In this document: one piece after another, positions 11,970-56,837 of the stretch
Layout of the letters: each line of letters begins with the position of its first letter
How positions within the stretch are numbered: position 1 is the first letter of the stretch
DNA from: an uncultured Veillonellaceae bacterium
GTDB lineage: Bacteria; Bacillota; Negativicutes; Veillonellales; Dialisteraceae
Assembly (NCBI GenBank): GCA_949286115.1
Contig: CASEBK010000011.1
Location: forward strand, 1 to 64,000
Reading direction: 5' to 3'
DNA: 64,000 nt
Translations under genes and position numbers: made by a program
The notes under the pieces: model-generated
Databases searched by the model: none
Seen by the model: only the letters and a program-made list of their open reading frames with translations
What the model was told of the DNA's origin: nothing

Positions 11970-14900
11970 ATGCAAAGAAAAAGAAACATGTTGTCCTTCT
12001 GGAATTATTCAACAGTAGCGTTGCTGTTGGATGCGTATCTGGCGGTGGAACAGGGGCAGGGCAGTCGGAAGGTGATGCTGGATCGTCTGGAAAAGGCATT
12101 TCAGCGATATATACAGGAAAAAGGAATCGCGCCCTCATCCGGCATGATTTCCCGGCCTGAGCTGGAAATGAAGTATGGAAAACTGGAATATGCCATGACG
12201 CAGGGGAAACGGGGACTCATGGGTGCTCCCGATATGCGCATTCAGGATATTGTGAAGATATATCGTACAAAGCGCTATTTGTACGACATATATCTGCGGT
12301 ATGGAAGTCAGGATTCCGGGTGGCAGATTTGCGGTAAGCCAAAAGGGGGAGAATCTGAAAGAAAAGAAACGGCACAGGAGACTGTAGGCTGTGACCAACC
12401 TGCCTCTCCTGCGGACTTGGAAAAACCGGTGCAGATATCTTCTCCAGATAAAGATCAGAAAACAGGCAATTCGTCCTTTTCGTTATATCGATGGGCTACT
12501 GCTGAAGTGAAACCTGTTTTTAATGGGCGCGTGACCGAAACAGGAAAACAGAAAGAAGTCCAACAGCATCGGCCCGCTTGCGCTGATGATAAAGATAAGC
12601 TTCCGGTAATAGAGGAGAAAATGAACAATCCGCAGGCATCCACAGGATATGCATTGGAAACGTCTGTGTCAAAAAATGTATTGCAGAAAGAAACCGGGAA
12701 AGAACACTATGAATGGCAAAAGGGGCGAAGCGACGAGCAGAGTGGTTTTTCGAACGGAGTGAATAAGTACCAGTGGATTTCTCTGAATACACCAATCGAA
12801 GAACTGGGGTTTCCCACCAGAATTTTTCATTGCCTGTATTGGAATAAATTACAGACGGTCAAAGATTTATTGGATTTTCCGGCGGATCAATGGAGTTCCC
12901 TGCGGAATATGGGGGCCAAAGGGAGGGATTTTCTTCTGACGGAAATTGAAAAAATAAAATGCGCTATGAAGCAGCCGCATCCGCCGCAGCCTTTGCGTAA
13001 AGCGGAAGAAACGCCAAAAGAGTTTCCGCGTGAAGAAAAAGTAATACATGTTCCGGACTGGAAGGAATGGTTTAAAACAATCGGAAGGGCGTTGGAGCTT
13101 CCCCCGCGAACGATCCGAAAATATTTACTGAATCAGGAGTTTGAGGCCTCGCAGGGGGAGCAAGCAGCGATGGATCTGCTCTGGGAGTGGCCGGAGACGC
13201 GTGCTTTTCTGAGGGAGAAAATTGGGAATTTCCTTGATACGACTCGTGGAAAAGGAGCGAGCCGGGAAGAGCTGTTGGCGATGCTTCCTGCACCGTTTCG
13301 TGATGCGGACAGGTTGCAAACCCTGTTGCGGAATCTGGCAGAAGATCGCCGGATTCGGCTGTACGGCACCATGGTCTATCCCCTGTATCCGATGCTGGAA
13401 GAATATGTGCAGCGCATTCCCAACGAGCGAAAACGGAAAATTATCTCTCTGCGGCTGGATGGGCTGACATTGGAAGAGACCGCAAAGGCCACAGGCATTA
13501 CTCGGGAGCGGGTACGGCAGATACAGAAACGATGGCTGTCGCCGAAACTAAAAACAGAAGAAATACGATATCTGTATTTTTGGGAGAAGTATCCCGCACT
13601 GGAGTCTTCCGATGTGCAGTATGTGCTGAATCTGCCGGACCGGACGAGACGGTATCTGGAGTTCATAGAATCATTGCCGGCTTCGGATGAATTGGAAACG
13701 CCAGCGCGGACGGAAGCGTTGCGGCACGTCGCAGAGGACGGAGAGCTGACGGAAGACGCACGGCAGCGGGCACGGCGGTGTGCAGATGAACTGGACGGGG
13801 AGTTTTTTATTGGTGGGGCAAGAATACAGAAAAATCGTTCCTCCCTTATGAAATATGTAGTGCAGACCTATGCCAGAGATAAAGTGACTTATAGAGAAGT
13901 AGTGAAACATTATCACCAACTTCTAAATGAGCTTGGAGTTGATAGCAATAAAAGTTATTCCATCGGTCCGGGATACATCAATAAATTGTCGCTGTCGGAT
14001 TATGTTTTGTGGAATCGAAAGGAAAGCCTCCGGTATTACGATATTCCGGCCCGCAAATACAGCGCTCTTCTGGATGCGCTGCATCTGGAGAAACTGCAGG
14101 ATGTGGAATATTCCACGCTGAAATTTTTCCGGGACCTTCCCGATGTGATGCGCACGTATGACATTCGCGACGAATATGAGCTGCACAATCTGCTTCGGAA
14201 AATCTGGCAGCGGGATGACCGCAATGTCGGTCTGGATGAACATCATCAGGTGACGTTCGCCAAGATGCCCACCATCCGTATCGGGCATGTCGACCGGTAT
14301 ACGCAGATTTACCGGTTCATTCAGGAGCATGAACCTATCAAAAAAGCAGACCTCATTCCCATGTATGCGGAAGCGTATGGCGTGAGGATTCAGTCTTTTC
14401 AGGGAAACGCGCCGCTGCAGGCATTTGACCGATATTGCTACGGCGGGGAATATCGCATCCACTGGGAAGGGCTTTCTGAAGAGGTCGTGGCGGAGCTAAA
14501 GCCGTTTCTCATGGAAGACCTGTACAGGAAGAGGGATATCAGCGAAATATACATGGGCATCGTGAATGGGAATCCCTGGGATATCAATGCCTATGTGCTG
14601 CATCAGCTGGGATTTGAATCGCATGGGGACTACGTTATCCGGGAGACTTATGATTCAGCGGCTGATTTGTTCCATCATGTGCTGACGGCGGCGGACATCG
14701 TTGATTTACGGGACCGGCGCTATTATCGAAATTATTCGCCCTTTGGCGTGGCAGCCGATGCGTTGGCGGCAGACTATCGCGTGCTGGAAGTGGAGCCGGA
14801 TATTTTCTACAGTGGGAGAGAACTGGAGAAACGGGGCATCACGGCGGAGAGCATGCGTGCTTTTTGCCAGAATGTCAAGGCGTTTGTTCCGAAAGAGGCG

Positions 14901-15239
14901 CTTTTTACGGTACATTCTCTTCGGCAGCATGGCTTTCCCCTGCCCTGGACGGACGCCGGGATTTCCGATTTCTTTTATAATTCTGTTTTATCCGCAGACA
15001 AATCGGATTTTGCAAGCCTCTTTTGCGGCGGAGGAAGGCTCTTTTATAACGGTGCGCTGGACCGGCAGCTGTCGGTGAGCGATTTATTTGTCCATGTGAT
15101 TGACCGGACCTGGGAAGCGCTGTCCATCGGGGAACTGCAGACGCTCATTCAGCAGCAGTTCGGGCTTCGAACCAAGCCGGAAAAAATCAGAGAATTTGTG
15201 AAGGCAAACGTGCAGTATAAAGGAAAAATTCTTTTTTGA
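11970..15239 (+). CDS. Large regulator-like protein with RNA polymerase alpha-CTD-like and sigma region-4-like domains
   Basis: This 1089-residue protein matches no single family I recognise. Residues about 269-331 (NTPIEELGFPTRIFHCLYW, then LQTVKDLLDF and LRNMGAKGRDFL) match the helix-hairpin-helix C-terminal domain of RNA polymerase alpha, which contacts UP-element DNA and activators. Residues about 483-525 (GLTLEETAKATGITRERVRQ) match the helix-turn-helix of sigma-70 region 4, which reads -35 boxes. Residues 130-265 are polar and probably disordered. The last 560 residues are mainly helical, with no motif I can name. It opens a six-gene same-strand cassette of DNA-active enzymes and may direct them to DNA or regulate them. 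Base composition is lower in GC than the flanking housekeeping genes. The domain calls are seen in sequence; the role is inference. Confidence 0.75.
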   Translation: MQRKRNMLSFWNYSTVALLLDAYLAVEQGQGSRKVMLDRLEKAFQRYIQEKGIAPSSGMISRPELEMKYGKLEYAMTQGKRGLMGAPDMRIQDIVKIYRTKRYLYDIYLRYGSQDSGWQICGKPKGGESERKETAQETVGCDQPASPADLEKPVQISSPDKDQKTGNSSFSLYRWATAEVKPVFNGRVTETGKQKEVQQHRPACADDKDKLPVIEEKMNNPQASTGYALETSVSKNVLQKETGKEHYEWQKGRSDEQSGFSNGVNKYQWISLNTPIEELGFPTRIFHCLYWNKLQTVKDLLDFPADQWSSLRNMGAKGRDFLLTEIEKIKCAMKQPHPPQPLRKAEETPKEFPREEKVIHVPDWKEWFKTIGRALELPPRTIRKYLLNQEFEASQGEQAAMDLLWEWPETRAFLREKIGNFLDTTRGKGASREELLAMLPAPFRDADRLQTLLRNLAEDRRIRLYGTMVYPLYPMLEEYVQRIPNERKRKIISLRLDGLTLEETAKATGITRERVRQIQKRWLSPKLKTEEIRYLYFWEKYPALESSDVQYVLNLPDRTRRYLEFIESLPASDELETPARTEALRHVAEDGELTEDARQRARRCADELDGEFFIGGARIQKNRSSLMKYVVQTYARDKVTYREVVKHYHQLLNELGVDSNKSYSIGPGYINKLSLSDYVLWNRKESLRYYDIPARKYSALLDALHLEKLQDVEYSTLKFFRDLPDVMRTYDIRDEYELHNLLRKIWQRDDRNVGLDEHHQVTFAKMPTIRIGHVDRYTQIYRFIQEHEPIKKADLIPMYAEAYGVRIQSFQGNAPLQAFDRYCYGGEYRIHWEGLSEEVVAELKPFLMEDLYRKRDISEIYMGIVNGNPWDINAYVLHQLGFESHGDYVIRETYDSAADLFHHVLTAADIVDLRDRRYYRNYSPFGVAADALAADYRVLEVEPDIFYSGRELEKRGITAESMRAFCQNVKAFVPKEALFTVHSLRQHGFPLPWTDAGISDFFYNSVLSADKSDFASLFCGGGRLFYNGALDRQLSVSDLFVHVIDRTWEALSIGELQTLIQQQFGLRTKPEKIREFVKANVQYKGKILF

Positions 15240-15252
15240 TACAGGTGTTTTT

Positions 15253-16530
15253 ATGAAAATCGCTATTATCGACGCCGATTTGATTGGCCGGAAAAAACAT
15301 CGGTTTCCCAATCTGGTCTGCGAAAAAATTGCCGAGTATTACAAATCTGTAAAAAATCTGCCGCCGGAAGACGTGGTGCTGAAAACCGATTATGAGGGGC
15401 TGGAGGCCTTTGACCGTATCTTCGTGGCCAAAGTGTTTACAGATACGCCGGTGCCGGAGTGGCTGCGCAGGGTCAGTCAGCCGAAAGAGCTGCTCATTCG
15501 CGTGGGCAAGCCGGATGCGGGCGAACTACCCGTGGAGGAATGGCTGGAAAAGACCGTGGGCTGCCTATATGACGGCCGGGTGCCGGTCAACGTGGGCGGC
15601 ACGGGCTTTTTCTTCGACCGGGCGCCGAATCTGCCCCATGTCATTGAGCATTGTCTGCCCGATTACCACCTGTATGATGATTGGATTGAAGAAAAACTTC
15701 GGCAGGCGGAAGAGAGCCGGAAAAAAGAGGGCAAGCCGTTTGTTCTCCCCCGGTACAGGACGCAGTTCCGGGAGTACCAGAAGTACAGCGTAGGTTATCT
15801 GACGCGCGGCTGTTTTCGCCACTGCGGATTTTGTGTCAATCAGAAATACAATCGGGTGTTTCGCCACAGCAGGCTGGAAGAGTTTTACGAAAAAGACCGG
15901 CCGCGCATTTGTCTTTTGGATGATAATTTCTTCGGATATCGGAACTGGAGGCCTCTTCTGGCGGAGCTCATCCGAACGGGAAAGAAGTTCAAATTCAAAC
16001 AGGGGCTGGATGAACGGCTGCTCACGGACGAGATGGCAAGGCTTCTTTTTTCCGCGAATTATGATGGGGACTACACGTTTGCCTTTGATAATATCGAAGA
16101 CTATGACCTGATTCATTCCAAGCTGGAAATCATTGCGCGGTATAAGAAGAAAAAGAGCATCAAATTTTATGTGCTGGTGGGATTTCGCTCTACCGACGAC
16201 GAGGATATCATCAATGCCTTCCGACGGATTGAACTGCTCATGCGGTACCAGTGCCTGCCGTATCTCATGCGATATCAGAATAAAAACGAGACGCCGTGGA
16301 AAGAGTCATCGCTGCGATCCATGTATGTGGCCATGGCGCGGTGGTGCAATCAGCCGAAAATTTTTAAGAAGATGAGTTTTCGCCAGTTCTGCGAGGCCAA
16401 TCAAGCATTGAAGAAAACAAGACGCATCTGTGCCCCCATGCAGGCGATGCTGGATTTTGAGCGCCGTCAGCCAGAGGCGGCCAGGCGGTACTTTGACCTC
16501 AAATACGATCAGTTTTCTTCCCGCAGCTGA
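15253..16530 (+). CDS. Radical SAM enzyme of the cassette
   Basis: This 425-residue protein has the radical SAM cluster motif CFRHCGFC, with cysteines at about 187, 191 and 194, which would bind a 4Fe-4S cluster for reductive cleavage of S-adenosylmethionine. DDNFFGYRNW and GLDERLLTDEMA fit the following strands of the partial TIM barrel. The first 180 residues (MKIAIIDADLIG..., FDRIFVAKVFTDTPVP) resemble the Rossmann-like domain of B12-binding radical SAM proteins but lack the DxHxxG cobalamin ligand. It starts 13 bases after the upstream stop without a strong ribosome site. A radical enzyme beside a helicase-nuclease and a DndD-like ATPase could modify DNA, nucleotides or a protein. The substrate is unknown. 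Confidence 0.85.
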   Translation: MKIAIIDADLIGRKKHRFPNLVCEKIAEYYKSVKNLPPEDVVLKTDYEGLEAFDRIFVAKVFTDTPVPEWLRRVSQPKELLIRVGKPDAGELPVEEWLEKTVGCLYDGRVPVNVGGTGFFFDRAPNLPHVIEHCLPDYHLYDDWIEEKLRQAEESRKKEGKPFVLPRYRTQFREYQKYSVGYLTRGCFRHCGFCVNQKYNRVFRHSRLEEFYEKDRPRICLLDDNFFGYRNWRPLLAELIRTGKKFKFKQGLDERLLTDEMARLLFSANYDGDYTFAFDNIEDYDLIHSKLEIIARYKKKKSIKFYVLVGFRSTDDEDIINAFRRIELLMRYQCLPYLMRYQNKNETPWKESSLRSMYVAMARWCNQPKIFKKMSFRQFCEANQALKKTRRICAPMQAMLDFERRQPEAARRYFDLKYDQFSSRS

Positions 16531-16566: not shown

Positions 16567-18663
16567 ATGGGATTACGGGACTTGACGCTGCGGTCCAGCT
16601 ACGAGACGGAGGAAAGCAGGACGCATTTGCTGGATACGTTTTATGTGCCGGTACTGGAGCAGGCGGCGACCTATTACCGCATCGCCGGCTATTTCAGCTC
16701 AGCGGCACTGACGGTCGCTGCCAGAGGCATTGAAGGGCTCATTCACAATGGCGGACGGATGTACCTGCTGATTTCTCCGACCCTATCGCAGAGTGATTAC
16801 GACGCGATTCAGGCTTACGGCGGACTTCGGGAGGACAATGCGCTGTTTCACGATTCCGATTTTCTGGAAAATGCCAATGATTCCGTTCGGGCGCTGGCGT
16901 GGCTTCTGGCCAGGGATCGGCTGAAAATCAAAATCGTCGTGGGCCGCCGCTCGCCGGACAGTCTTTTTCACCAGAAAGTGGGAATTATCACTGATGGCAG
17001 GAACGATCAGATTTCCTTTTCCGGTTCTGTCAATGAGACGGCGCAGGGCTGGACAGAAAATATTGAAGAATTCAAGGTGTTTCGTTCCTGGGAACCGGGG
17101 CAGCTGGAATACGTAAAGGACGACCTGCGGAAATTTCTGGAGTTTTGGAAAAATAAGCGCCCTGCCATAGCGCAAGCCTATGATATCCCTGACGCGATCC
17201 GGGAAAAGCTTCTCCGTACGCAGCCGGATGATGTGATGGAACTCTCTATCATGCAGCGCTACGGAAAACAGACGGGCAGGAAAGACAGGGCGGGAACACT
17301 GAGCCTTTTTCCTCATCAGGAGGCGGCCGTGCAGCAGTGGAAGAATAACCACGGCGCGCTTCTCATGGAGATGGCTACGGGGACCGGAAAGACAAGAACG
17401 GCTATCGGCTGCATGGTGGAAGCACTGAAAAAAGAACCGCAGCTTCTGACCATCGTCGCCACACCGCAGAATACGCTGTCCCGGCAGTGGAGGGACGATC
17501 TGCAGAAGCTGCATATTCAGCTGGACGCGGACCCCATCCTCGATGGAAGCAATCCTCACTGGAAACGGGATCTGAAGATGCTGCTTCTTGCCATGGGGCG
17601 GACCGTGCGGCAGGTGATCCTTTTCACGACGCATGAGACGGCTTCGTCCGAGGCCTTTCTTTCTCTGATTCATCAATACAAAGGCCGGACAAAGGTCCTC
17701 TTTATCTGTGACGAGGTCCATGCCATCGGCGCCGATAAGCAGCGTCGGGCGTTGCTTCCCGAGTATGAATATCGGGTGGGACTTTCCGCTACGCCGGAGC
17801 GGCTCTTTGACGAAGAGGGCAGTCAGCTCATCCGCGATTATTTTGGCGAAAAATCCTTCGCCTTCACCATCGCCGATGCGCTTCACACGATCAATCCTGT
17901 GACGGGGCGGCCGTTTCTCAATCCGTATGTGTATCATCCGCAGTTTGTGGATCTCAATGATGAAGAATACAGAAAATATAAACGGATTCAGAAAATCATT
18001 GCCGGACTGAGTCAGGAAGTAAAGCGCAAAAAAGAAAACAACTTGCCCTGCACAGAGGAAAAGGAAGCACTGGAAAAACAGTATCGGAATCGGGCCAATA
18101 TTGTCAAAAATGCGGCGAGGAAACTGCCGGCGCTGGGGCAGCTTCTCGATACACTGGGGCCGAAACGGATTCGCGATGCGATTCTTTTTGTATCAGACAA
18201 GCAGATGGAAGACGGCATGAAGCTCCTTGCGGCGAAAGGAATTACCCGGGCGAAGATTACAGAGGAAATTTCGGCCAGAAAGATGAATGACGCAGGGCGG
18301 ACGGAACGGCAGCAGATCATTGAAGATTTTTCTCATCACATGCTGCAGGTGATCCTGGGGATCAAATGCCTTGATGAAGGCATTGACATTACCTCCGCCC
18401 GGATTGCGATTTTGCTGGCCAACAGCACAAATCCCCGGGAATACATTCAGCGCATCGGCCGGGTCATTCGTCCTGCCGAGGGAAAGAAAATGTCGGAAAT
18501 CTTTGACTGGATTGTCCTGGGGCCGGAGGACGAGCCGCTGCTCAAAAGCGAGCTGAAGCGGGTCGTTTTCATCGCGGAAAATGCGAATAACCGGGACGAG
18601 GTGCATCGAATCTTTGAAGAGAAAGGGGTGTCGCTGGATGAGTATCAGCAGGCGGATTCATGA
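16567..18663 (+). CDS. PLD-nuclease/SF2 helicase fusion protein
   Basis: This 698-residue protein has two parts. Residues about 30-190 are a phospholipase D-like domain, with the HKD motif in FHQKVGIITDG and SFSGSVNET (HxK...D...GSxN), the active site of PLD-type nucleases. Residues about 250-650 are a superfamily 2 helicase: Walker A MATGTGKT (about 268-275), DEVH (about 382-385), GLSATPERL and motif VI QRIGRVIRP (about 627-635). This architecture is frequent in defence-linked restriction proteins. It suggests an ATP-driven translocase that nicks or degrades DNA, possibly the effector of the cassette. It overlaps the 60-aa gene downstream by 26 bases. Confidence 0.88.
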   Translation: MGLRDLTLRSSYETEESRTHLLDTFYVPVLEQAATYYRIAGYFSSAALTVAARGIEGLIHNGGRMYLLISPTLSQSDYDAIQAYGGLREDNALFHDSDFLENANDSVRALAWLLARDRLKIKIVVGRRSPDSLFHQKVGIITDGRNDQISFSGSVNETAQGWTENIEEFKVFRSWEPGQLEYVKDDLRKFLEFWKNKRPAIAQAYDIPDAIREKLLRTQPDDVMELSIMQRYGKQTGRKDRAGTLSLFPHQEAAVQQWKNNHGALLMEMATGTGKTRTAIGCMVEALKKEPQLLTIVATPQNTLSRQWRDDLQKLHIQLDADPILDGSNPHWKRDLKMLLLAMGRTVRQVILFTTHETASSEAFLSLIHQYKGRTKVLFICDEVHAIGADKQRRALLPEYEYRVGLSATPERLFDEEGSQLIRDYFGEKSFAFTIADALHTINPVTGRPFLNPYVYHPQFVDLNDEEYRKYKRIQKIIAGLSQEVKRKKENNLPCTEEKEALEKQYRNRANIVKNAARKLPALGQLLDTLGPKRIRDAILFVSDKQMEDGMKLLAAKGITRAKITEEISARKMNDAGRTERQQIIEDFSHHMLQVILGIKCLDEGIDITSARIAILLANSTNPREYIQRIGRVIRPAEGKKMSEIFDWIVLGPEDEPLLKSELKRVVFIAENANNRDEVHRIFEEKGVSLDEYQQADS

Positions 18664-18820
18664 GCAGATCGAAAAACTGGATGTCGATCCGGAGATGAAG
18701 AAAATGATGATGGGCATTTTATTTGCAGAGAGTCAGAGTAAAAGCAATTACAAAGGGCTTTACGATAAGAAAATCACGGACTATCTGAAACAGAAAGAGG
18801 CAAAAGGAGGCAGTCGATAA
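18638..18820 (+). CDS. Small (60 aa) conserved-position protein of the cassette
   Basis: The ATG at 18638 is preceded by GAGAAAGGGGTG at good spacing, inside the last codons of the helicase gene. The stop TAA overlaps the ATG of the next gene (TAATG). This double overlap is strong evidence for a real, translationally coupled gene. The product (MSISRRIHEQIEKLDVDPE...) is charged and helical, with no motif and no membrane segment. A 60-80 aa protein is also described as a regular companion of DndD-type DNA-modification systems, so a structural or adaptor role is plausible. I cannot confirm homology by eye. Confidence 0.65.
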   Translation: MSISRRIHEQIEKLDVDPEMKKMMMGILFAESQSKSNYKGLYDKKITDYLKQKEAKGGSR

Positions 18821-20823
18821 TGGCGATTCAAATCGAACGGATAGAGTTTCAGAATTATCGCCAGTATGGCACGGGGATGTTTTCCTTCGAAAAAAACGCC
18901 GGGGCATCGAGCCAGCTTTTTGCCTTCATTGCGCCAAACGGCACCGGGAAAACAACGCTTCTCCGTATGATCATCTGGTGCCTCTATGGCGAGGAGACGC
19001 CGGGCACTTCGCCTTCGCAAAAAGAAAAGCGGCTGCCGTTGGTGAATACGAAGGTGTTGCAGCAGAGTGGGACCGGAGAGCAGGTGCCCGTTTCGGTTTC
19101 GATTCGTTTTCTGATTGATGGAGCTTTTGTTGACTTCAAACGGTCTGCAACCTATGAGAAAAAGGCAGATGGGACGGTCGCGCGGAAAAACATGACGTTT
19201 TCTTCCGTCATGACGCCATCGAATGGCAGCAACTCCCAGACGCGGGAAGGGGAAGAAGCGGATTTCATCGTCAAGCAGTATTTTGACAAGGCCATTTATA
19301 ATTTCTATTTCTTCGACGGTGAAAAACTGAGCGACTTCTTCCGGACCCCGCTCAAAGACTCCATTTACAATATCGCGCAGGTGAATCTACTGGAAAATAT
19401 CGTCAACCACACGAAGACGATCAAAAATGAACTGAATCGAAAATTGGGGACGTCCGTTCCTAACATCGGTGAAAAACAGCAGCAGATAGAAGCCAAGCGG
19501 AAGACATTAGATGGCGTTCGGGAACAGCTTGTGTTTGAGCGGGAAACGCTTCAGAAGCAGGAACAGGAATTCGATGAGCTGGAGGTGCAGCTTCGCGGGT
19601 ATGAGCCTGTAAAAAAGATTCAGGCAGAGAGAGACAATCTGAATCATCATTTGGCAGAACTGAATAAATCCTGGGAGGATTTTCTCACAGAGCGCAATAA
19701 ATTTGTGAGAAAATACCTGACCCTTCTGAATTTATTTCCACGCATCAAGGCGCTTCATACGTACATTGAAGCGAAATCATCTCAGGGGAAGCTGCCGCCG
19801 GCCATTGACCGGGATCAAATCTTGAAGCTCATCGAGCATCCGGATATGCCCTGCCCACTTTGCGGAACGCATCTGACTAAAGAGGCGCGGGACGCACTGC
19901 AGGCGCTGCTGACGCAATATGAACTGTCTTCCCGAGCGGCCAATCTGCTGAGCAGTTTTCGTTCGCCGCTGGAGGAGCTGCTCAAAGAGGCGGAAGCGTA
20001 TGAGTCTGAGAAGGATGCGCTGCTGCAGAAGGAACAGTCGCTGCGGGATCAAATCAAAAAGACAAAGGTGCAGCTGGAAGAAAAGGATCGTGCCATTTCC
20101 CACTTTGGCGGCGACGTCGGCGGAAAGAAATTTACCGAGCTGGATCAGAAATATCATGCGCTGCGTCAAGGCATTGAGAAAAGCAATCGTACGATCGGAC
20201 AGTTGGAAAATGCAGAGCGCATGTACAACGGGGAACTGGATGCTCTCGATCGGGAGATGAAAAATCTGAACGCAAAGGCGGATATGGCGAAGGAGTATAA
20301 AGCGAAATACGAAGTGTTGTGTAAGCTGTCCGAAAAATTCACTGAGGTTAAAGATCATATCGTAGATGAGACCAAAACTGATATGCAGGCGCGCACATGG
20401 AAATTTTTCTCGGAGATGATCTGGAAGACCAATACGTTTGGAAAGATTCTGATTGACGATGCGTACAATGTGACGGTTTACGACCGGGAAGGCCGCGTGA
20501 TGACGGATTCCATGTCGGAAACAGAAAAGATGGCACTGGCCTATTCTTTTACGCTGGCGGTGCATGAGATTTCCGGGAAAAACTGTCCTCTGGTGATTGA
20601 CTCGCCGCTGGGCCGTGTGTCCGATGAGAACCGAGAACGCATGGCGCGGGCGCTGCTGGACGTGGCGAAAGAGAAGCAGATCATCATGCTTTTCACGCCG
20701 GATGAATATTCGCTGGCCGTAGCGTCGCTTTATGAACATGCGGCGACGGTGCGCAGATTGGAATTGTCGGCTGACGAGAGCCGGGTAGAAGGAGTCGAGG
20801 CATATGGCGCAGGAGCGTACTAA
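18820..20823 (+). CDS. DndD-like SMC/Rad50-type ATPase
   Basis: This 667-residue protein begins with the ABC half IERIEFQNYRQYGTG and Walker A APNGTGKTTLL (about residues 38-48). NFYFFDGEKLSDFF (about 164-177) is highly characteristic of DndD. Two coiled-coil arms flank a CPLCG zinc-hook-like motif (about 345-349) with only one CxxC. The C-terminal half has the signature-like MSETEKMALAYSFTLAVHE and Walker B PLVIDSPLGRVSDENR. DndD proteins are ATPases of phosphorothioation systems and their relatives occur in other DNA-defence loci. No cysteine desulfurase, DndC or DndE is present here. The gene overlaps its neighbours on both sides. Confidence 0.85.
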   Translation: MAIQIERIEFQNYRQYGTGMFSFEKNAGASSQLFAFIAPNGTGKTTLLRMIIWCLYGEETPGTSPSQKEKRLPLVNTKVLQQSGTGEQVPVSVSIRFLIDGAFVDFKRSATYEKKADGTVARKNMTFSSVMTPSNGSNSQTREGEEADFIVKQYFDKAIYNFYFFDGEKLSDFFRTPLKDSIYNIAQVNLLENIVNHTKTIKNELNRKLGTSVPNIGEKQQQIEAKRKTLDGVREQLVFERETLQKQEQEFDELEVQLRGYEPVKKIQAERDNLNHHLAELNKSWEDFLTERNKFVRKYLTLLNLFPRIKALHTYIEAKSSQGKLPPAIDRDQILKLIEHPDMPCPLCGTHLTKEARDALQALLTQYELSSRAANLLSSFRSPLEELLKEAEAYESEKDALLQKEQSLRDQIKKTKVQLEEKDRAISHFGGDVGGKKFTELDQKYHALRQGIEKSNRTIGQLENAERMYNGELDALDREMKNLNAKADMAKEYKAKYEVLCKLSEKFTEVKDHIVDETKTDMQARTWKFFSEMIWKTNTFGKILIDDAYNVTVYDREGRVMTDSMSETEKMALAYSFTLAVHEISGKNCPLVIDSPLGRVSDENRERMARALLDVAKEKQIIMLFTPDEYSLAVASLYEHAATVRRLELSADESRVEGVEAYGAGAY

Positions 20824-21238
20824 TTTTTCTGCAGGCCGCCGCAAATGGCTGGATGATCTGAAGGCGACAAAGATTCTGGAACTGGATACGCTGGACAATA
20901 AGGATATTTTCTTTCTTGCCATCGCGTTGGGGTATCGGGACCCGAAGCCGCTGAAAGGTGGGGAGTCATGGATTCAGTGCAATGTATACACCGGTAAAGA
21001 ACGCGCATTGATCTGTTCTGCTCTTCTGGGAAAAGTCTGCGAGGACGGAGAAGACGTCAATGAGAAAGCTGACTTTATGAAGTGCAACCGCTATGCAGAA
21101 ACATGCGCGGAGGCAGGTTTCGACAAGCTTCAGGCGCTCTGTGAGGAGAATCATTATGATAACGACGAGCTGTGCGCATACCTGCTGCAGGAACTGGACC
21201 GGCTGTATGATGTCAATGTAGAATCTGCCGATATGTGA
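20804..21238 (+). CDS. Uncharacterised 144-aa cassette protein
   Basis: The start ATG at 20804 lies 20 bases inside the end of the DndD-like gene. The product is acidic and soluble, with no catalytic motif I can name. Residues about 32-45 (NKDIFFLAIALGYR) form a hydrophobic helix ending in LGY. From memory this resembles small proteins annotated as phosphorothioation-associated protein 4, but the resemblance is weak. It is the last gene of the cassette and is followed within 12 bases by a strong terminator. Its co-translation with the ATPase suggests the two products bind each other. Function unknown. Confidence 0.65.
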   Translation: MAQERTNFSAGRRKWLDDLKATKILELDTLDNKDIFFLAIALGYRDPKPLKGGESWIQCNVYTGKERALICSALLGKVCEDGEDVNEKADFMKCNRYAETCAEAGFDKLQALCEENHYDNDELCAYLLQELDRLYDVNVESADM

Positions 21239-21289: not shown

Positions 21290-22450
21290 TTATTGCTCTG
21301 CTTCGGCCAGGAGGTCGTCCAGGAAGGGGATGGGGCGGCCGGAGGCGGCGAGGAAGCGGAAGATGGAGAGGGCGTCGGGGGAGCCGGCGGCCCAGGCGGA
21401 CCAGAGGAGAGGCAGGCCCATGTCGTCGTTCTCCTGTACGAGGAGGCCGCCGAAGGAGGCGCGGGCGGAGAGGTCGCCCCGGGCGGCGCGGAGGATGAGG
21501 TCCTGCCGCTCCTCCTCTTCTTCGCGCAGGGCGGAGAGGAGGGCCGCGCGGGAGAGGGCGCTCTCAGGGACGGCGAAGGTGTTCATCATGGCGGCGAGGG
21601 CCTTCATGTCGTCGAAGCGTTTGATGAGCGGGGCGAGCATGAAGTACGGCCGGGGATCGAGGGGCATGGTCTGGAGGACGAAGAGGAGGGGCCCGGCGAG
21701 TTTGTCCCGCGGGATGCGGCCGCGGACGGCGTTGCCCATGATGGCGGCGGCGCGCCCGATGTCTTCCTTGGAGGCGGCGAGGGGCACAAGGCCGAGCACG
21801 CGCCGCGGGAGGAGGAAGAAATAGATGCGGTGGATGCAGCGCTGGAGGGCGAAAAGGAGCCGGCGGACGGTCTCTGGGTCTTCGTAGATGGCGGATTCGC
21901 GCCCGCCGATGCGGAGAGAGGTGACGAGATTTCCCAGCGCGTTGAAGACGCTGTGCGCCGCGCCGGTGACGAGATTCACCGCGCCCGCCTCGAGGCTGGC
22001 CCAGAGCGCTGCGTCGAGACCGAAGCCGCCGCCCACGAAGCGGCCCCGCAGCTCTTTGCGGATGCGCCGCCGTTCTTCTTCGCCGAGCTTTTCCGTCTCG
22101 AGGTCTACGAAGGCATCGTACACGTGCTGGAAGGCGTCCTGCCAGGGGCGGATGAGGAGTCCTTCTTTGTCGAGAGCGGTGAAGGCCGCTTCGTTCACGT
22201 CGTAGTGCCCGGCGTCCACCGCATCCTGTACGGCGAGCTGCACGGCCCGGGCGATGGTGAGCCGCCCCCAGTCGTAGCCGTCCCGGCAGAAGGCGGAAAG
22301 GCTCCCGCAGGCGCGGTACTTCTTGAGAAATGCGAGCGCCGCTTCCCGGGCGATGTGGGTCCCTTTCCGGTGACAGGTCATGTAGGCCGCAAGGTCCGGC
22401 GGCCAGGAGAGGTCGGTCTCTCCGATGCGATAGGTGATGGGTAGAGTCAT
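21290..22450 (-). CDS. Uncharacterised 386-aa protein, possibly repeat-containing
   Basis: I do not recognise this family. The protein is soluble, rich in Ala/Leu/Arg and probably all-helical, with no signal peptide, membrane segment or catalytic motif. Cysteines are few. The C-terminal part (GDLSARASFGGLLVQEND, then LPLLWSAWAAGSPDALSIFRFL) has a periodicity like Sel1/TPR solenoids, which the 416-aa protein at the left end of the window also has, so the two may be distantly related. The start is well supported by TAGGAGGCTCCC before ATG. High GC and codon use match the housekeeping neighbours, not the adjacent low-GC cassette. Confidence 0.6.
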   Translation of the reverse strand: MTLPITYRIGETDLSWPPDLAAYMTCHRKGTHIAREAALAFLKKYRACGSLSAFCRDGYDWGRLTIARAVQLAVQDAVDAGHYDVNEAAFTALDKEGLLIRPWQDAFQHVYDAFVDLETEKLGEEERRRIRKELRGRFVGGGFGLDAALWASLEAGAVNLVTGAAHSVFNALGNLVTSLRIGGRESAIYEDPETVRRLLFALQRCIHRIYFFLLPRRVLGLVPLAASKEDIGRAAAIMGNAVRGRIPRDKLAGPLLFVLQTMPLDPRPYFMLAPLIKRFDDMKALAAMMNTFAVPESALSRAALLSALREEEEERQDLILRAARGDLSARASFGGLLVQENDDMGLPLLWSAWAAGSPDALSIFRFLAASGRPIPFLDDLLAEAEQ

Positions 22451-25249: not shown

Positions 25250-25416
25250 CTGCAAAAGTGTACTATTTTTGGGGCGTTTCGCCTATTGAATTTGACTGCC
25301 CCGCTTTGTAAAATAGAACTGTGTCACTATACTTTTTTTGTTATTGACGTATTCACATGACTTATATCATTCGACTCGTTTGATGTACGGTTGGTGATGG
25401 GATAAGGAGGAGAATT

Positions 25417-28400
25417 ATGAGAACGATCCACAAAGTCCTGGTCGCAAACCGCGGGGAGATCGCCATTCGCGTGTTCCGCGCGTGCAGCGAGCTGGGCATC
25501 CGCACCGTTGCGATTTATTCCAAAGAGGATATTCTGTCTCTGCACCGCAACCGCGCAGACGAAGCATACCTGGTGGGCGAGGGCAAGAAGCCCGTCGACG
25601 CCTATCTCGATATCGAGGACATCATCCGCATCGCCAAAGAGCACGATGTGGACGCCATCCATCCCGGCTACGGGTTCCTCGCGGAAAATGCGGAATTTGC
25701 AAGACGCTGTGAAGAAGAAGGCCTCATTTTCATCGGCCCGAAGGTAGAGCACCTCGTCATGTTCGGCGACAAGGTGAACGCCCGCATCCAGGCGGAAAAG
25801 GCGGGCATCCCCATGATCCCCGGCACGAAGGGGGCCGTGAAGAGCTTTGAAGAAGTGAAGGAATTTGCGGAGACCCACGGTCTGCCGGTCATGATCAAAG
25901 CCGTCAACGGCGGCGGCGGACGCGGCATGAGAAACGTGGACCGCATGGAAGATCTGGAAGACGCGTACTACCGGGCGAAATCCGAAGCGAAGATGGCTTT
26001 CGGCGATGAAGACGTGTACGTGGAGAAGTGCATCATGAACCCGAAGCACATCGAAGTGCAGGTCATCGGCGACGAGCACGGCCACATCGTCCACCTCTTC
26101 GAGCGCGACTGCTCCATCCAGCGCCGCCATCAGAAGGTCATCGAGATGGCTCCGGCGTGGTCGCTTCCCACCTCGCTCCGTCAGGAGATCTGCGACGCCG
26201 CCGTGAAACTCATGAAGAACGTGAACTATGTGAACGCAGGCACGTGCGAATTCCTCGTCGATCAGGATGAGAAGCATTTCTACTTCATCGAAGTCAATCC
26301 CCGCGTACAGGTGGAGCACACCGTGACCGAGCTCATCACGGACATCGACATCGTGAAGAGCCAGATCCTCATCGCGGAAGGGTACTCTCTCGAAGACTCC
26401 GTCATCGGCATCGGCCGTCAGGAAGATATCACCCATCACGGCATGGCCATCCAGTGCCGCATCACCACGGAAGATCCGCAGAACCACTTCATGCCTGACA
26501 CGGGCAAGATCATCGCCTACCGGAGCGGCGGAGGCCCGGGCATCCGTCTCGACGCGGGCACGGCCTACACCGGCGCGGTCATCACCCCCTACTATGATTC
26601 CCTGCTGGTGAAAGTCACCGCCTACGCGCGCACGCCCCTCGACGCCATCGGCCGCATGGAGCGCTGCCTCAATGAATTCCGCATCAGCGGCGTGAAGACG
26701 AATATCTATTTCCTCCAGAACATGCTCGCCACGAAGGACTTCCAGGAAGGCCTCTGCGACGTGAACTACATCGACCGTCATCCGGAGCTCCTCATCGACC
26801 CGAACGCCGTGAGCGACCGCGGCACGAAGCTCCTCGACTACATCGGCGACATCACCGTGAACGGATACGCCGGCGCCGGCCATCAGGACAAGCCGGACTT
26901 CGCGCCGCTCCCCGTGCTGGACGCCTCCGGCGAAGAATGCCCCAGAGGCACCAAGCAGCTCCTGGACGAGCTGGGACCGGAGAAATTCGCGAAATGGGTG
27001 CAGGACCAGAAAGAAGTCCTCTTCATGGACACCACCTACCGCGACGCCCATCAGTCGCTTCTGGCGACGCGTGTCCGCACCCACGACATCATGAACGCCA
27101 TCCACTACACGGCCGTCCATGTGCCGCAGCTCTTCTCCTTTGAAAACTGGGGCGGCGCCACCTTCGACGTGGCGTACCGCTTCCTCGACGAATGCCCGTG
27201 GCAGCGCCTCCGCGCCATGAGAGCCGCCGCGCCGAACATCCTTTTCCAGATGCTCACCCGCGGGGCGAACGCCGTCGGCTATGAGAACTATCCGGAGAAC
27301 GTGGTGCGCCACTTCATCGACCGCGCGGCCGTGAACGGCGTGGACGTCTTCCGCATCTTCGACTGCCTCAATCAGCTCTCCCACATGACCGTCACCATCG
27401 ACGAAGTGCGGAAGAACGACAAGCTCGCCGAAGTGGCCCTCTGCTACACCGGCGACATCCTTGACCCGAAGCGGCAGAAATACAATCTGAAATATTACAC
27501 CGACATGGCGAAAGAGCTGGAAAAAGCGGGCGCGAACATCATCGCCATCAAAGACATGTCCGGCATCCTGAAGCCGGAAGCGGCGGGCGTGCTCGTCTCT
27601 GCGCTGAAAGACGCGGTCGACCTGCCGATCCACCTCCACAGCCACGAAGGCAGCGGCGTCATGCTCTACAGCTACGCCAAAGCCATCGACGCGGGCGTGG
27701 ATATCGTGGACGTGGCCACCAGCGCCCTGGCCAACGGCACCAGCCAGCCCTCCATGCAGTCCATGTACTATGCCCTCCAGAACCATCCGCGCCAGCCGAA
27801 GCTCGACATCGAAGCCCTCGAAGCCATCGACCGCTACTGGGCGGCCGTGCGGCCCTATTACGCCGGCGTGGACAGCAAGATGACCAGCCCGAACACCACC
27901 GTCTACATGCACGAGATGCCCGGCGGCCAGTTCTCCAACCTCCGCCAGCAGGCCACTGCCGTCGGCCTCGGCGACAAGTGGCTCGACGTGTGCCGCATGT
28001 ACGCGAAAGTGAACATGATGTTCGGCGACATCATCAAAGTCACCCCGTCCTCCAAAGTGGTGGGCGACATGGCCCTCTTCATGGTCCAGAACGGCCTCAC
28101 CGAAGAAGACATCTACGAGAAGGGCGACACCCTCGACTTCCCGAAGTCCGTAGTGGGATTCTTCGCAGGCAACCTCGGCACCCCCTACGGCGGTTTCCCG
28201 GAAAAACTGCAGCAGATCATCCTCCGCGGCAAGAAGCCTATGGAAGAATCCACGCCGCCGGACGTCGACTTCGACGCCGTGAAGGCGGAGATGAAAGAAA
28301 AGCAGCTCCCCGTGACCGAGCAGTCCGTCTCTTCCTACCTCATCTACCCGAAGGTCTACAGCGACTATCAGGCGCGGTATAAGATGTACGGCGACCTCTC

Positions 28401-28845
28401 CATCCTCGACACGCCCACCTTCTTCTTCGGCATGAAGCCCGGCGAAGAGATCCGCGTCAACATCGAGCAGGGCAAGATGCTCCTCATCCGCCTCGACGAC
28501 ATCACCAAGCCCGATGAGAATGGCGACCGTCTCATCCGCTTCGAACTGAACGGCATGCCCCGTGAGATCAAAGTCCACGACAAGCACATCGCCACGGCGA
28601 ACATCGAAGTGCGCAAGGCAGACAAAGACGTCCTCGGCGAAGTGGGCGCGACCCTCTCCGGCTCTGTGGTGAAAGTCCTCGTCGAAAAGGGCCAGCACGT
28701 GAAGAAAGGCGAGCCCATCGTCGTCACCGAAGCGATGAAGATGGAAACGAACATCACCGCTCCGAAAGACGGCATCGTCAGCGAGATCGTCGCCAAAGCA
28801 GGCGCACGCATCTCCTCGGGCGACCTCCTCCTCGTCATCGAATGA
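25417..28845 (+). CDS. pyc: Pyruvate carboxylase
   Basis: This 1142-residue protein has the full length of the single-chain, four-domain enzyme, which makes oxaloacetate from pyruvate, bicarbonate and ATP. Residues 1-450 are the biotin carboxylase (VLVANRGEIAIRVFRA, HPGYGFLAENAEFA, then KAVNGGGGRGMR and EVNPRVQVEHTVTE). Residues about 530-800 are the carboxyltransferase barrel (FMDTTYRDAHQSLLATRVR, with zinc-site HLHSHEGSG). The C-terminal biotinyl domain has EAMKMETN, with the biotinylated lysine at about 1108. ATG 25417 follows AAGGAGGAG. It has its own terminator. In Negativicutes-like fermenters it feeds the succinate/propionate branch as well as anaplerosis. Confidence 0.97.
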   Translation: MRTIHKVLVANRGEIAIRVFRACSELGIRTVAIYSKEDILSLHRNRADEAYLVGEGKKPVDAYLDIEDIIRIAKEHDVDAIHPGYGFLAENAEFARRCEEEGLIFIGPKVEHLVMFGDKVNARIQAEKAGIPMIPGTKGAVKSFEEVKEFAETHGLPVMIKAVNGGGGRGMRNVDRMEDLEDAYYRAKSEAKMAFGDEDVYVEKCIMNPKHIEVQVIGDEHGHIVHLFERDCSIQRRHQKVIEMAPAWSLPTSLRQEICDAAVKLMKNVNYVNAGTCEFLVDQDEKHFYFIEVNPRVQVEHTVTELITDIDIVKSQILIAEGYSLEDSVIGIGRQEDITHHGMAIQCRITTEDPQNHFMPDTGKIIAYRSGGGPGIRLDAGTAYTGAVITPYYDSLLVKVTAYARTPLDAIGRMERCLNEFRISGVKTNIYFLQNMLATKDFQEGLCDVNYIDRHPELLIDPNAVSDRGTKLLDYIGDITVNGYAGAGHQDKPDFAPLPVLDASGEECPRGTKQLLDELGPEKFAKWVQDQKEVLFMDTTYRDAHQSLLATRVRTHDIMNAIHYTAVHVPQLFSFENWGGATFDVAYRFLDECPWQRLRAMRAAAPNILFQMLTRGANAVGYENYPENVVRHFIDRAAVNGVDVFRIFDCLNQLSHMTVTIDEVRKNDKLAEVALCYTGDILDPKRQKYNLKYYTDMAKELEKAGANIIAIKDMSGILKPEAAGVLVSALKDAVDLPIHLHSHEGSGVMLYSYAKAIDAGVDIVDVATSALANGTSQPSMQSMYYALQNHPRQPKLDIEALEAIDRYWAAVRPYYAGVDSKMTSPNTTVYMHEMPGGQFSNLRQQATAVGLGDKWLDVCRMYAKVNMMFGDIIKVTPSSKVVGDMALFMVQNGLTEEDIYEKGDTLDFPKSVVGFFAGNLGTPYGGFPEKLQQIILRGKKPMEESTPPDVDFDAVKAEMKEKQLPVTEQSVSSYLIYPKVYSDYQARYKMYGDLSILDTPTFFFGMKPGEEIRVNIEQGKMLLIRLDDITKPDENGDRLIRFELNGMPREIKVHDKHIATANIEVRKADKDVLGEVGATLSGSVVKVLVEKGQHVKKGEPIVVTEAMKMETNITAPKDGIVSEIVAKAGARISSGDLLLVIE

Positions 28846-52970: not shown

Positions 52971-53000
52971 ATTATATGATTAATATTAACAGGAAGTCAA
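52971..53000 (-). promoter_or_regulatory. Sigma-A promoter of the SIMPL operon
   Basis: On the minus strand TTGACT (52995-53000) and TATAAT (52971-52976) are 18 bp apart and 50 bp before the first gene. Confidence 0.85.
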
Positions 53001-53089
53001 CGGGAGGGCGTTCCCCTTTTTATTTTTATTGTGTTAAGATATAGACGTGAAAAACTGGATGCAGTTGAAGAGAGGGAGGAGTGTTTCCA

Positions 53090-56000
53090 GTGTCTATGAT
53101 CAAACGCGTATATGTACGGAAAAAAGAAGGCTTCCGCCAGGAAGAGGAGCGGCTCGCCGCCGAGCTTTCCGAATTTCTGGGGAGCCGCATCCGCGGCGCG
53201 GCCATCTATCATCGCTACGATGTGGAGGGGCTCACCGCGGAGGAATATGAGACGGCCCGGGTGACGGTCTTCTCGGAGCCGCCGGTGGACGCGACGGAGG
53301 AGACGCTTCCCACGGGCGACATGGTGCTCGCCGTGGAGTTCCTGCCCGGCCAGTACGATCAGCGGGCGGACTCGGCGGAGCAGTGCCTCGCGATCCTCAC
53401 GGGCAAGGACGGCATCCGCGTGCGCTGCGCTCTCGTGTACGTCCTCACCGGAGATTTCCAGGAGGGCGACCGCGAGGCGGTGCTGAAGTACCTCGTGAAC
53501 CCGGTGGAGTCGAGAGAGGCCTCTCTTGCGCCTGCGGAAACGCTGGACCTGCCCTATGAGGAGCCGAAGGCGGTGCCGGTGGTGGCGGGCTTCCGCGATA
53601 TGGACGAAGCGGCGCGGGCGGCGCTCATGAAAGATATGGGCCTTGCGATGAGCGCGGACGACCTGGCGTTCATCCAGCGCTACTACCGGGAGGAAGAAAA
53701 GCGCGACCCCACGGTGACGGAGATCCGCGTGTTCGACACGTACTGGTCCGACCACTGCCGTCACACCACGTTTGGCACGGCGCTCTCGAAGATCTCCGTC
53801 GATAAGGGCCGCTACACCCGGCCCATCGCGGCGGCGCTGGGCGATTACGAAGCGGCGCGGACGGCGCTCTACGGCGCGGATACGAAGCGCCCGGTGACGC
53901 TCATGGACATGGCCACGGCGGCGGTGAAGGCGCTCAGAAAAGAAGGCAAGCTCCAGGAGATGGATGAGTCCGACGAGATCAACGCCTGCACCATCAAGGT
54001 GACGGTGGATACCGAGGACGGCCCGGAAGAATGGCTCCTCCTTTTCAAAAATGAAACGCACAATCATCCCACGGAGATCGAACCTTTCGGCGGCGCGGCG
54101 ACCTGTCTGGGCGGCTGCATCCGCGACCCGCTCTCCGGCCGGGCCTACGTGTATCAGGCGATGCGCGTCACCGGCGCGGGCGATCCCCGGACGCCTCTTT
54201 CGGAGACGCTCCCGGGCAAGCTCCCTCAGCGGACGCTCACCATCACGGCGGCGAAGGGCTACAGCTCCTACGGCAACCAGATCGGCCTTGCCACAGGCGA
54301 AGTGACCGAATATTATCATCCGGGCTTCGTCGCCAAGCGTATGGAGATCGGCGCGGTGGTCGCAGCCGCTCCCAGAGAGAACGTGATCCGCATGACGCCC
54401 CAGCCGGGCGACGTGGTCATCATGGTGGGCGGCCGCACCGGCCGCGACGGCATGGGCGGCGCCACGGGCTCTTCGAAGGAGCTCAACACGGAGTCCATCG
54501 AGACCTGCGGCGCGGAAGTGCAGAAGGGCAATCCGCTCACCGAGCGCAAGATCCAGTGCCTCTTCCGCCGGGGCGAGGTGACCCGCCTCATCAAGCGGAG
54601 CAACGACTTCGGCGCAGGGGGCGTGTCCGTCGCAGTGGGCGAGCTCACCGACGGCGTGGACATCGACCTCGACACGCTCCCGAAGAAATATGAAGGGCTG
54701 GACGGCACAGAGCTCGCCATTTCCGAATCGCAGGAACGGATGGCCGTGGTGGTCGCCGCCAAAGACGCGGCAGACTTCATCCGCTACGCCGCAGAGGAGA
54801 ACCTCGAAGCGACCGTGGTGGCCGCCGTCACCGATAAAGGCCGCCTCACCATGCGCTGGCGGGGCGACACCATCGTGGACATCAGCCGCGCCTTCCTCGA
54901 CACGAACGGCGTGATGCAGACGAAGGAAGCGGAGATCGCCGCGCCGGAAGACAAAGACCCCTTCGCGCTGCCTGCGGTCTCCTCGGTGAAAGAGACCTGG
55001 CTTGCCGCGATGGGCGCGCTCAATAACGCCTCCGAACAGGGGCTGGGCGAGCGCTTCGACGGCACCATCGGCGCGGGCACGGTGCTCATGCCCTACGGCG
55101 GCCGTTTCCAGAAGACCCCTGCGGACGGCATGGCGGCGAAGATCCCCGTGAGACGCGGCGAGACCGACACGGCCAGCTTCATGACCCACGGCTACGACCC
55201 GGCGCTCGCCGTGTGGAGCCCCTTCCACGGTGCGGCCTACGCGGTGCTCCTCTCTGTGGCGCGCATGGTCGCCCTCGGCGCAGATTGGCGGAAGACCTAC
55301 CTCACGCTGCAGGAATATTTTGAAAAACTGACTGATGCGAAGAGCTGGGGCAAGCCCGCCTCCGCCCTCCTCGGCGCGTATACCATGCAGCGCCGCCTCT
55401 CCCTCGGGGCCATCGGCGGCAAAGACTCCATGAGCGGCACCTTCAACGACCTGCACGTGCCGCCGACCCTCGTGTCCTTCGCCGTCGCTCCGGGCAGAGC
55501 GTCCGAAGCGGTGAGCCAGGACTGGAAACAGGCAGGGGACTCCCTTGTCCTCTTCGACGTGCCCCATGACGAAGCGGGCATGCCCGACACGGACGTCTTC
55601 GCGGCGCACGGCGACTTCCTCTACAAAGAAGCGGCGGCGGGGCGCGTGGCGGCCATGAAGGCTGTGGGCCACGGCGGCATCGCCGTCACCGCAGCGAAGA
55701 TGGCCTTCGGCAGCGCCATCGGCGCAGATTTCAATGATGCCCTTGCGCCGGCGGAATATTTCCGCATGCGCTACGGCGCGATCCTCGCCGAGACCGACCC
55801 GGCGACGGCAGCGGAATGGGCGAAGCGGGACCACGTGACCGTCATCGCTGCCCTGGGCGGTGACGCCATGACCCTCGGCGGCGAGACCGTCTCCGTGGCG
55901 GACCTCCTCGCTGCCTCGGAAAAGACCCTGGACCCCATCTTCCCGCTCCGCGCGGCGGACCTCCCCGGCAAAGTGGACGCGCTCCCGAAGTGGACCGGTG

Positions 56001-56833
56001 CGCCGGTGGCCTACCACGGCGTATCCATCGCCCGGCCGCGGGTCTTCATCCCCGTCATGCCCGGCACGAACTGCGAAGTAGACAGTGCCCGCGCCTTTGA
56101 ACGGGCCGGAGCCGACACGGATATCTTCATCGTGCGGAACCGCGACGCGGCAGAGCTGAAAGAGTCCGTCGAAGAAATGGCGGCCCGCATCCGCCAGGCG
56201 CAGATCGTCATGTTCCCGGGCGGCTTCTCCGCCGGCGACGAACCGGACGGCAGCGGCAAATTCATCGCCGCCCTCTTCCGCAATCCGCACCTCGAAGCGG
56301 CCCTGGGCGATCTCCTGGGCAACAGGGACGGCCTCGCGCTCGGCATCTGCAACGGCTTCCAGGCTCTCATCAAGCTCGGCCTCGTGCCGTACGGCCAGTT
56401 CAAGCCCCTCACAGGCGACGCGCCGACCCTCACCTTCAACACCATCGGCCGCCACCTCTCGCGGTACGTCACCACCCGCGTGGTGTCCACGAAGTCCCCG
56501 TGGCTCTCCCTCTGCAAAGAAGGGGACCTCCACAGCATCGCCATCAGCCACGGAGAAGGGCGCTTCATCGCCTCCGACGAGCAGATACGGGCATGGGCGG
56601 CCAACGGCCAGATCGCGACCCAGTACACCGATGAGACCGGCCATGCCTCCTACGACAGCCGGTACAATCCGAACGGCTCCGCCTGGGCCATCGAAGGCAT
56701 CACCAGCCCCGACGGCCGCGTCCTGGGCAAGATGGGCCACAGCGAGCGCTGCGGCACGAACATCGCAAAGAACATTTCCGGCAACAAATACCAGCCTCTC
56801 TTCGCGGCAGGCGTCGCCTATTTCAAAGGATAA
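53090..56833 (+). CDS. purL: Phosphoribosylformylglycinamidine synthase, single-chain
   Basis: This protein of about 1247 residues is of the long Firmicutes/Bacteroidetes type. It converts FGAR, ATP and glutamine to FGAM in purine synthesis. Order of domains: PurS-like and linker region (1-200, with TYWSDHCRHTTF near 220), the two AIRS-type halves (NETHNHPTEIEPFGGAATCLGG; GKDSMSGTFNDL) and a C-terminal class I glutamine amidotransferase. The last has FPGGFSAGDEPDGSGKF and the catalytic Cys at about 1087 in GICNGFQ. GTG 53090 is preferred over ATG 53096, because GGGAGGAG is then 9 bases away. The TSCPD gene follows after 4 bases. Confidence 0.95.
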   Translation: MSMIKRVYVRKKEGFRQEEERLAAELSEFLGSRIRGAAIYHRYDVEGLTAEEYETARVTVFSEPPVDATEETLPTGDMVLAVEFLPGQYDQRADSAEQCLAILTGKDGIRVRCALVYVLTGDFQEGDREAVLKYLVNPVESREASLAPAETLDLPYEEPKAVPVVAGFRDMDEAARAALMKDMGLAMSADDLAFIQRYYREEEKRDPTVTEIRVFDTYWSDHCRHTTFGTALSKISVDKGRYTRPIAAALGDYEAARTALYGADTKRPVTLMDMATAAVKALRKEGKLQEMDESDEINACTIKVTVDTEDGPEEWLLLFKNETHNHPTEIEPFGGAATCLGGCIRDPLSGRAYVYQAMRVTGAGDPRTPLSETLPGKLPQRTLTITAAKGYSSYGNQIGLATGEVTEYYHPGFVAKRMEIGAVVAAAPRENVIRMTPQPGDVVIMVGGRTGRDGMGGATGSSKELNTESIETCGAEVQKGNPLTERKIQCLFRRGEVTRLIKRSNDFGAGGVSVAVGELTDGVDIDLDTLPKKYEGLDGTELAISESQERMAVVVAAKDAADFIRYAAEENLEATVVAAVTDKGRLTMRWRGDTIVDISRAFLDTNGVMQTKEAEIAAPEDKDPFALPAVSSVKETWLAAMGALNNASEQGLGERFDGTIGAGTVLMPYGGRFQKTPADGMAAKIPVRRGETDTASFMTHGYDPALAVWSPFHGAAYAVLLSVARMVALGADWRKTYLTLQEYFEKLTDAKSWGKPASALLGAYTMQRRLSLGAIGGKDSMSGTFNDLHVPPTLVSFAVAPGRASEAVSQDWKQAGDSLVLFDVPHDEAGMPDTDVFAAHGDFLYKEAAAGRVAAMKAVGHGGIAVTAAKMAFGSAIGADFNDALAPAEYFRMRYGAILAETDPATAAEWAKRDHVTVIAALGGDAMTLGGETVSVADLLAASEKTLDPIFPLRAADLPGKVDALPKWTGAPVAYHGVSIARPRVFIPVMPGTNCEVDSARAFERAGADTDIFIVRNRDAAELKESVEEMAARIRQAQIVMFPGGFSAGDEPDGSGKFIAALFRNPHLEAALGDLLGNRDGLALGICNGFQALIKLGLVPYGQFKPLTGDAPTLTFNTIGRHLSRYVTTRVVSTKSPWLSLCKEGDLHSIAISHGEGRFIASDEQIRAWAANGQIATQYTDETGHASYDSRYNPNGSAWAIEGITSPDGRVLGKMGHSERCGTNIAKNISGNKYQPLFAAGVAYFKG

Positions 56834-56837
56834 GATC

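Follow-up and report, generated by a model that had tools for sequence, protein, structure and literature searches.

In defence systems that lack linked DNA modification, it is an open question how targets are chosen. The question is raised here by a five-gene operon in the window (the whole 64,000-nucleotide stretch that was analysed, from an uncultured Veillonellaceae bacterium), in which ORF1 comes first and is followed by genes for a radical-SAM protein, PbeA, PbeC and a PbeD-like protein (Table 1). The enzymes of the operon are recognizable: ORF3 matches PbeA over residues 3-680 of 698 (PADLOC, E 1.2e-188) and retains its helicase motifs, and ORF4 matches PbeC over its full length (PADLOC, E 5.7e-76). 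The smallest product, ORF5, has no Pfam or PADLOC match and only weakly matches the equivalent gene of another Pbe locus, L105 (5e-7). The frame at 21293-22444 was considered as part of ORF5 and rejected: it lies beyond a stop codon and the terminator-like hairpin, and a sister species has a relative, at 60% identity, of the minus-strand frame that covers it.

Table 1. Features of ORF1 and of the operon that it heads, in window coordinates.
Feature	Position	Strand	Length	Remarks
ORF1, alpha-CTD / sigma region 4 / winged-helix-array protein	11970..15239	+	1089 aa	ORF exact at these ends
ORF1 residues 1-113	11970..12308	+		N-terminal helical domain, family unassigned; moderate model confidence
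ORF1 residues 114-264	12309..12761	+		Predicted disordered linker; pLDDT < 50
ORF1 residues 268-331	12771..12962	+		Alpha-CTD domain; Pfam and VIA-align
ORF1 residues 406-473	13185..13388	+		Predicted winged helix
ORF1 residues 474-528	13389..13553	+		Sigma-70 region 4 HTH; recognition helix TRERVRQI (511-518)
ORF1 residues 529-569	13554..13676	+		Conserved helices that pack against region 4; may mimic the beta-flap tip internally
ORF1 residues 570-1089	13677..15236	+		Predicted tandem winged-helix array
ORF2, radical-SAM protein	15253..16530	+	425 aa	CFRHCGFC (CxxxCxxC) at residues 187-194; relatives annotated radical-SAM
ORF3, PbeA: HKD (PLD-like) nuclease fused to SF2 helicase	16567..18663	+		HxK...GSxN 135-156, GTGKT 272
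ORF4, PbeC: ABC ATPase	18820..20823	+		Walker A PNGTGKTT at 39, CPLC hook at 345
ORF5, protein in PbeD/DndE position	20804..21238	+	144 aa	Overlaps ORF4 by 20 bases; terminator-like hairpin after

The arrangement resembles that of the PbeABCD (CxC ABC-ATPase-DndE) systems (PMC6459918, PMC10853773), with ORF3 as PbeA, ORF4 as PbeC with CPLC as its Zn-hook, and ORF5 in the position of PbeD. Unlike those systems, it is not linked to phosphorothioation genes, and PbeA and PbeC are not separated by a small PbeB gene, the 156-base gap between ORF3 and ORF4 being too short for a separate gene of 66 aa. It also adds ORF1 and a radical-SAM gene, neither of which is described for Pbe in those reports. 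Close relatives of ORF2 lie beside PbeA-PbeC in two other genomes (loci L098 and L105), which makes the radical-SAM gene a recurrent companion of Pbe, with or without ORF1; a DNA-modifying or nucleotide-making enzyme is one possible identity for it. The phosphorothioation genes DndCDEA are absent from the operon, and the PAPS-reductase family (PF01507) has no match in the 90% complete assembly, while all 14 of 14 control genomes were positive. Thus, phosphorothioate self-marking is unlikely. The operon has been acquired horizontally and inserted in a variable site: its G+C content is about 50%, against 60-65% in the flanks, and homology with the sister species G001 and G002 ends directly after the M18 gene that adjoins it. 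Elsewhere in the window, very long antisense frames (25327-28698 and 52997-56848) run opposite long frames, one of them opposite pyruvate carboxylase, and are probably an effect of high G+C coding sequence.

ORF1 itself joins two modules that are familiar from RNA polymerase. A first-pass annotation had placed an alpha-CTD-type domain near residues 269-331 and a sigma-70 region 4 HTH near residues 483-525, and both are borne out by profile and fold. Pfam assigns residues 271-318 to RNA_pol_A_CTD (E 5.5e-8; 32.9 bits, curated cut-off 23.8) and residues 485-521 to Sigma70_r4 (E 4.1e-9; 36.3 bits, curated cut-off 24.1). The full chain was modelled with AlphaFold2 from an alignment of 49 sequences, and both folds are present in the model at high pLDDT (above 90 over about 271-330 and 476-525). 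The mean pLDDT is 78, and the alpha-CTD and most of 370-1089 score above 90. The best fold match of residues 268-331 is the B. subtilis alpha-CTD, 1z3e (VIA-align: Z 10.2, 64 residues, rmsd 2.0), and residues 472-528 of the model align on sigma region 4 structures. Independently of fold, a profile search found RpoA and primary sigma factors as the best PDB sequence matches.

The likeness extends to the residues that touch DNA. Across the family, the alpha-CTD contact residues are kept in most of the 77 aligned repeats (R265 in 70, N268 in 54, G296 in 71, E302 in 69), and the sigma residues that contact the -35 element are kept in most of the 49 members (R584 in 43, E585 in 42, R588 in 42, Q589 in 48). 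In ORF1, the alpha-CTD keeps the equivalents of R265, C269, G296 and K298; N268 is replaced by H, S299 by G and E302 by F. RNA polymerase has two alpha-CTDs. An iterated search seeded with the host RpoA CTD found at least two copies (two or three) in 35 of the 49 members, and one in ORF1. Sequence, residues and fold thus all support the first proposal, that ORF1 mimics the two parts of RNA polymerase that read promoters. Directly after region 4, the family alignment contains a conserved block, ED.Y..hF..Y.F....F..hF.E....Y.YL. In two loci with a second, tandem ORF1 paralogue (L035:12709-14700 and L040:12061-14043), that paralogue has a partly deleted region 4 HTH and keeps this block.

The roughly 560 residues C-terminal to the HTH had been described as unknown sequence. 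They are not featureless: a helix-helix-helix-strand-strand pattern, seen at 406-473, is repeated over about 570-1089 in the AlphaFold2 model, and the top Foldseek matches of ORF1 are the tandem winged-helix proteins UFL1 and the C-terminus of SelB, with weak E values of 2e-3 to 1e-2. Together, these data suggest that the C-terminal part is most likely a predicted winged-helix array with an uncertain number of units, and this array is the largest part of ORF1. Winged-helix arrays, as in SelB, are able to bind RNA too.

Is the combination of modules peculiar to this operon? A genome-wide scan with a 6-row alignment found 57 loci with ORF1 relatives, mostly in Bacillota, with others in Spirochaetota, Verrucomicrobiota and Melainabacteria MAGs; relatives also occur in 50 plasmid records, nearly all from Enterococcus. 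Few genomes carry a member (8 of 380 in the class and 4 of 398 in the phylum), and ORF1 sits on a long branch of its own in the family tree. Sigma70_r4 is found by Pfam in 44 and RNA_pol_A_CTD in 38 of the 49 aligned members, so the combination is a family trait rather than chance. A viral contig scan and a tblastn search of phages found no relatives in phages, leaving a phage origin without support, and a comparison with a viral structure library gave nothing significant.

Relatives of ORF1 repeatedly head cassettes that target DNA. Among the 53 loci with enough flanking sequence, 30 encode a 405-aa DGNRR-motif protein after the relative, and 28 encode a SNF2-type helicase, which in some of them carries an HKD domain at its N terminus. 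The 405-aa partner is called ParB/Srx-like from this motif only, searches of Pfam, PADLOC and the PDB having given no match. The idea that ORF2 is a diverged form of this partner was rejected, since the two do not match in a profile comparison and relatives of ORF2 carry radical-SAM annotations. On two Enterococcus plasmids (L013 and L014), the three-gene cassette adjoins type I restriction, toxin-antitoxin and AbiV genes, which are defence or stability genes. Other relatives head SspBCD or type 4 BREX phosphorothioation operons (L073, L074 and L020), which differ from the window operon in that it has no SspA-D, BrxP or BrxC. For example, a relative heads BrxP-SspB-SspC-SspA-PbeA in L073:12186-21632, where PbeA is the apparent effector; L074 shares these gene clusters and L077 shares them in part, with phosphorothioation genes accompanying the relative in all three, and in L020 an alpha-CTD/sigma4 part precedes BrxP and BrxC in a BREX-like operon. 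In L082:4817-8752, a single open frame joins a full Sau3AI-like endonuclease (residues 20-462) to a family protein, the endonuclease replacing the alpha-CTDs, and the fusion is followed by the same two partners, ParB-like and HKD/SNF2 helicase. At least seven changes of context label fall on well-supported branches, which points to repeated swapping, gain or loss of partners. A DNA-reading protein that recurs while the enzyme module changes is what one would expect of a subunit for targeting or sensing.

We therefore favour, at a probability of about 0.5, the reading that ORF1 serves an anti-phage (anti-mobile-DNA) effector operon as its DNA-reading subunit and works without the RNA polymerase core. 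ORF1 would bind promoter-like DNA with a copy of the upstream promoter-reading apparatus of RNA polymerase: the alpha-CTD would contact an A+T-rich, UP-element-like minor groove, sigma region 4 would read a -35-like site in the major groove, and the winged-helix array may widen the contact with DNA or protein. The bound site would then be offered to PbeA (the HKD nuclease-helicase), to the PbeC ABC ATPase with its small partner, and to the radical-SAM protein. Of the three roles suggested in the first-pass annotation, recruitment of the cassette enzymes to DNA is the best supported, with a family that heads unrelated DNA-targeting cassettes and the one Sau3AI fusion speaking for it; we infer the promoter specificity, as we do DNA binding itself, a complex with PbeA and PbeC, and a defence phenotype. 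The lost equivalents of N268, S299 and E302 in the ORF1 alpha-CTD count against an effector subunit, as do the relatives that stand alone.

About twenty relatives lie apart from ParB-like, HKD-SNF2, Ssp/BREX and Pbe partners. Fifteen genomes with an unlinked relative were searched for the ParB-like partner and for PbeA, and neither was detected in 14 of them, suggesting that the family is able to act without these effectors. The exception is Dialister micraerophilus, in which a ParB-like/HKD-SNF2 pair (L126:7464-11383) lies about 330 kb from the relative (L026:10001-12700). Some standalone genes keep their neighbours across species, for example in L066/L075 and L039/L051, as would suit a housekeeping regulator. 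Vertically inherited copies of this kind show that the protein is useful by itself, and they keep open a role for ORF1 as a transcription regulator, or as a silencer that occludes promoters of the locus or of foreign DNA, rather than as an effector subunit. Regulation of the locus was also among the roles first suggested, and the several relatives that occur singly at conserved chromosomal sites leave a regulator role conceivable. Modules that read promoters but lack an enzyme domain, the first position in operons and the distant gene pair in D. micraerophilus would all fit. However, ORF1, with its winged-helix array, is larger than a typical local regulator, the family repeatedly comes first in cassettes that cut or modify DNA by different mechanisms, and in L082 it is fused to Sau3AI. 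On balance, we regard a regulator or silencer as a somewhat doubtful explanation, though a serious one.

A further explanation is that the alpha-CTD and region 4 are generic HhH and HTH modules without promoter preference, such that ORF1 would scan DNA like PglW, BrxA or SspB and specificity would be set elsewhere. Accessory DNA-binding modules of this kind are known: PglW contains alpha-CTD-like domains, and BrxL and DndH contain sigma-like HTHs (PMC12839542, PMC10853773). The dominance of the winged-helix array within ORF1 is in keeping with such a role. PglW of type 2 BREX resembles ORF1 in being a large protein of defence systems whose alpha-CTD-like domain precedes winged helices, but it has NERD, kinase and inactive STAND domains and no reported sigma region 4 (PMC12839542). 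ORF1 matches PglW only over the alpha-CTD (267-355) and has no Pfam kinase match. MzaA of the MZA system (NCBIfam NF041931) is likewise defence-linked and carries sigma region 4; ORF1 matches this family at 485-523 only, with 21.1 bits against a cut-off of 800, and is not a full-length member. A literature search on MzaA returned nothing relevant. Housekeeping sigma-A region 4 and the RpoA alpha-CTD have their fold and DNA-contact residues in common with ORF1, which is without sigma regions 1-3 and the alpha N-terminal domain. The known systems nearest to ORF1 thus share single modules only. Against generic modules, the contact residues stay near the housekeeping sequences across very divergent members, which would be unexpected of freely respecified domains, and we consider this explanation unlikely.

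Could ORF1 instead act on RNA polymerase? In Pfam and NCBIfam searches, region 4 is the only part of sigma that matches, region 2 being absent. Similarly, the alpha C-terminal domain matches alone, the N-terminal assembly domain being absent from ORF1, and Pfam identified no other core-binding part. In addition, the helices that follow region 4 may take the place of the polymerase flap. In the full model, region 4 and residues 529-569 align with sigma4/beta-flap-tip chimeras (8d5v, Z 8.5; 6ido, Z 8.0; 7kuf, Z 8.0). When fragment 466-572 was modelled alone (pLDDT 91, pTM 0.80), its top five matches were five chimera entries (Z 6.6-7.5, 68-83 residues), with sigma4-only structures at Z 6.1 or below. 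All five chimeras align over more residues than any sigma4-only structure, at Z scores (6.6-8.5) that amount to modest evidence. Since Foldseek superposes the chimeras loosely (rmsd about 7), we offer the flap mimic as a suggestion: the flap-docking groove of ORF1 may be filled by its own helices, an internal replacement for the RNA polymerase flap. With region 2 absent and region 4 possibly holding its own flap-tip-like helices, ORF1 should work without the polymerase core. The idea that ORF1 binds to RNA polymerase and so detects a phage taking over transcription, which its homology to polymerase parts had suggested, is thereby weakened to a very unlikely one, given the missing core-binding parts and a flap-binding groove that may be occupied.

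Returning to the DNA-reading subunit, we tentatively suggest a broader possibility: that an immune family has taken over the face with which RNA polymerase reads promoters, in the form of two alpha-CTDs, one sigma region 4 and an internal mimic of the beta-flap tip, and has made of it a reader independent of the polymerase. Such a reader would mark foreign promoters for cleavage or silencing, and would serve as an interchangeable targeting head of Pbe, Ssp, BREX-like and undescribed ParB-like/HKD-SNF2 cassettes. A targeting subunit that reads promoters would, if true, be a new targeting rule, and phages could escape it only by changing promoters that they need for their own transcription. The family also marks a three-gene cassette of ORF1 relative, ParB-like protein and HKD-SNF2 helicase that is carried on Enterococcus plasmids and, judging from PADLOC and the literature, is apparently undescribed.
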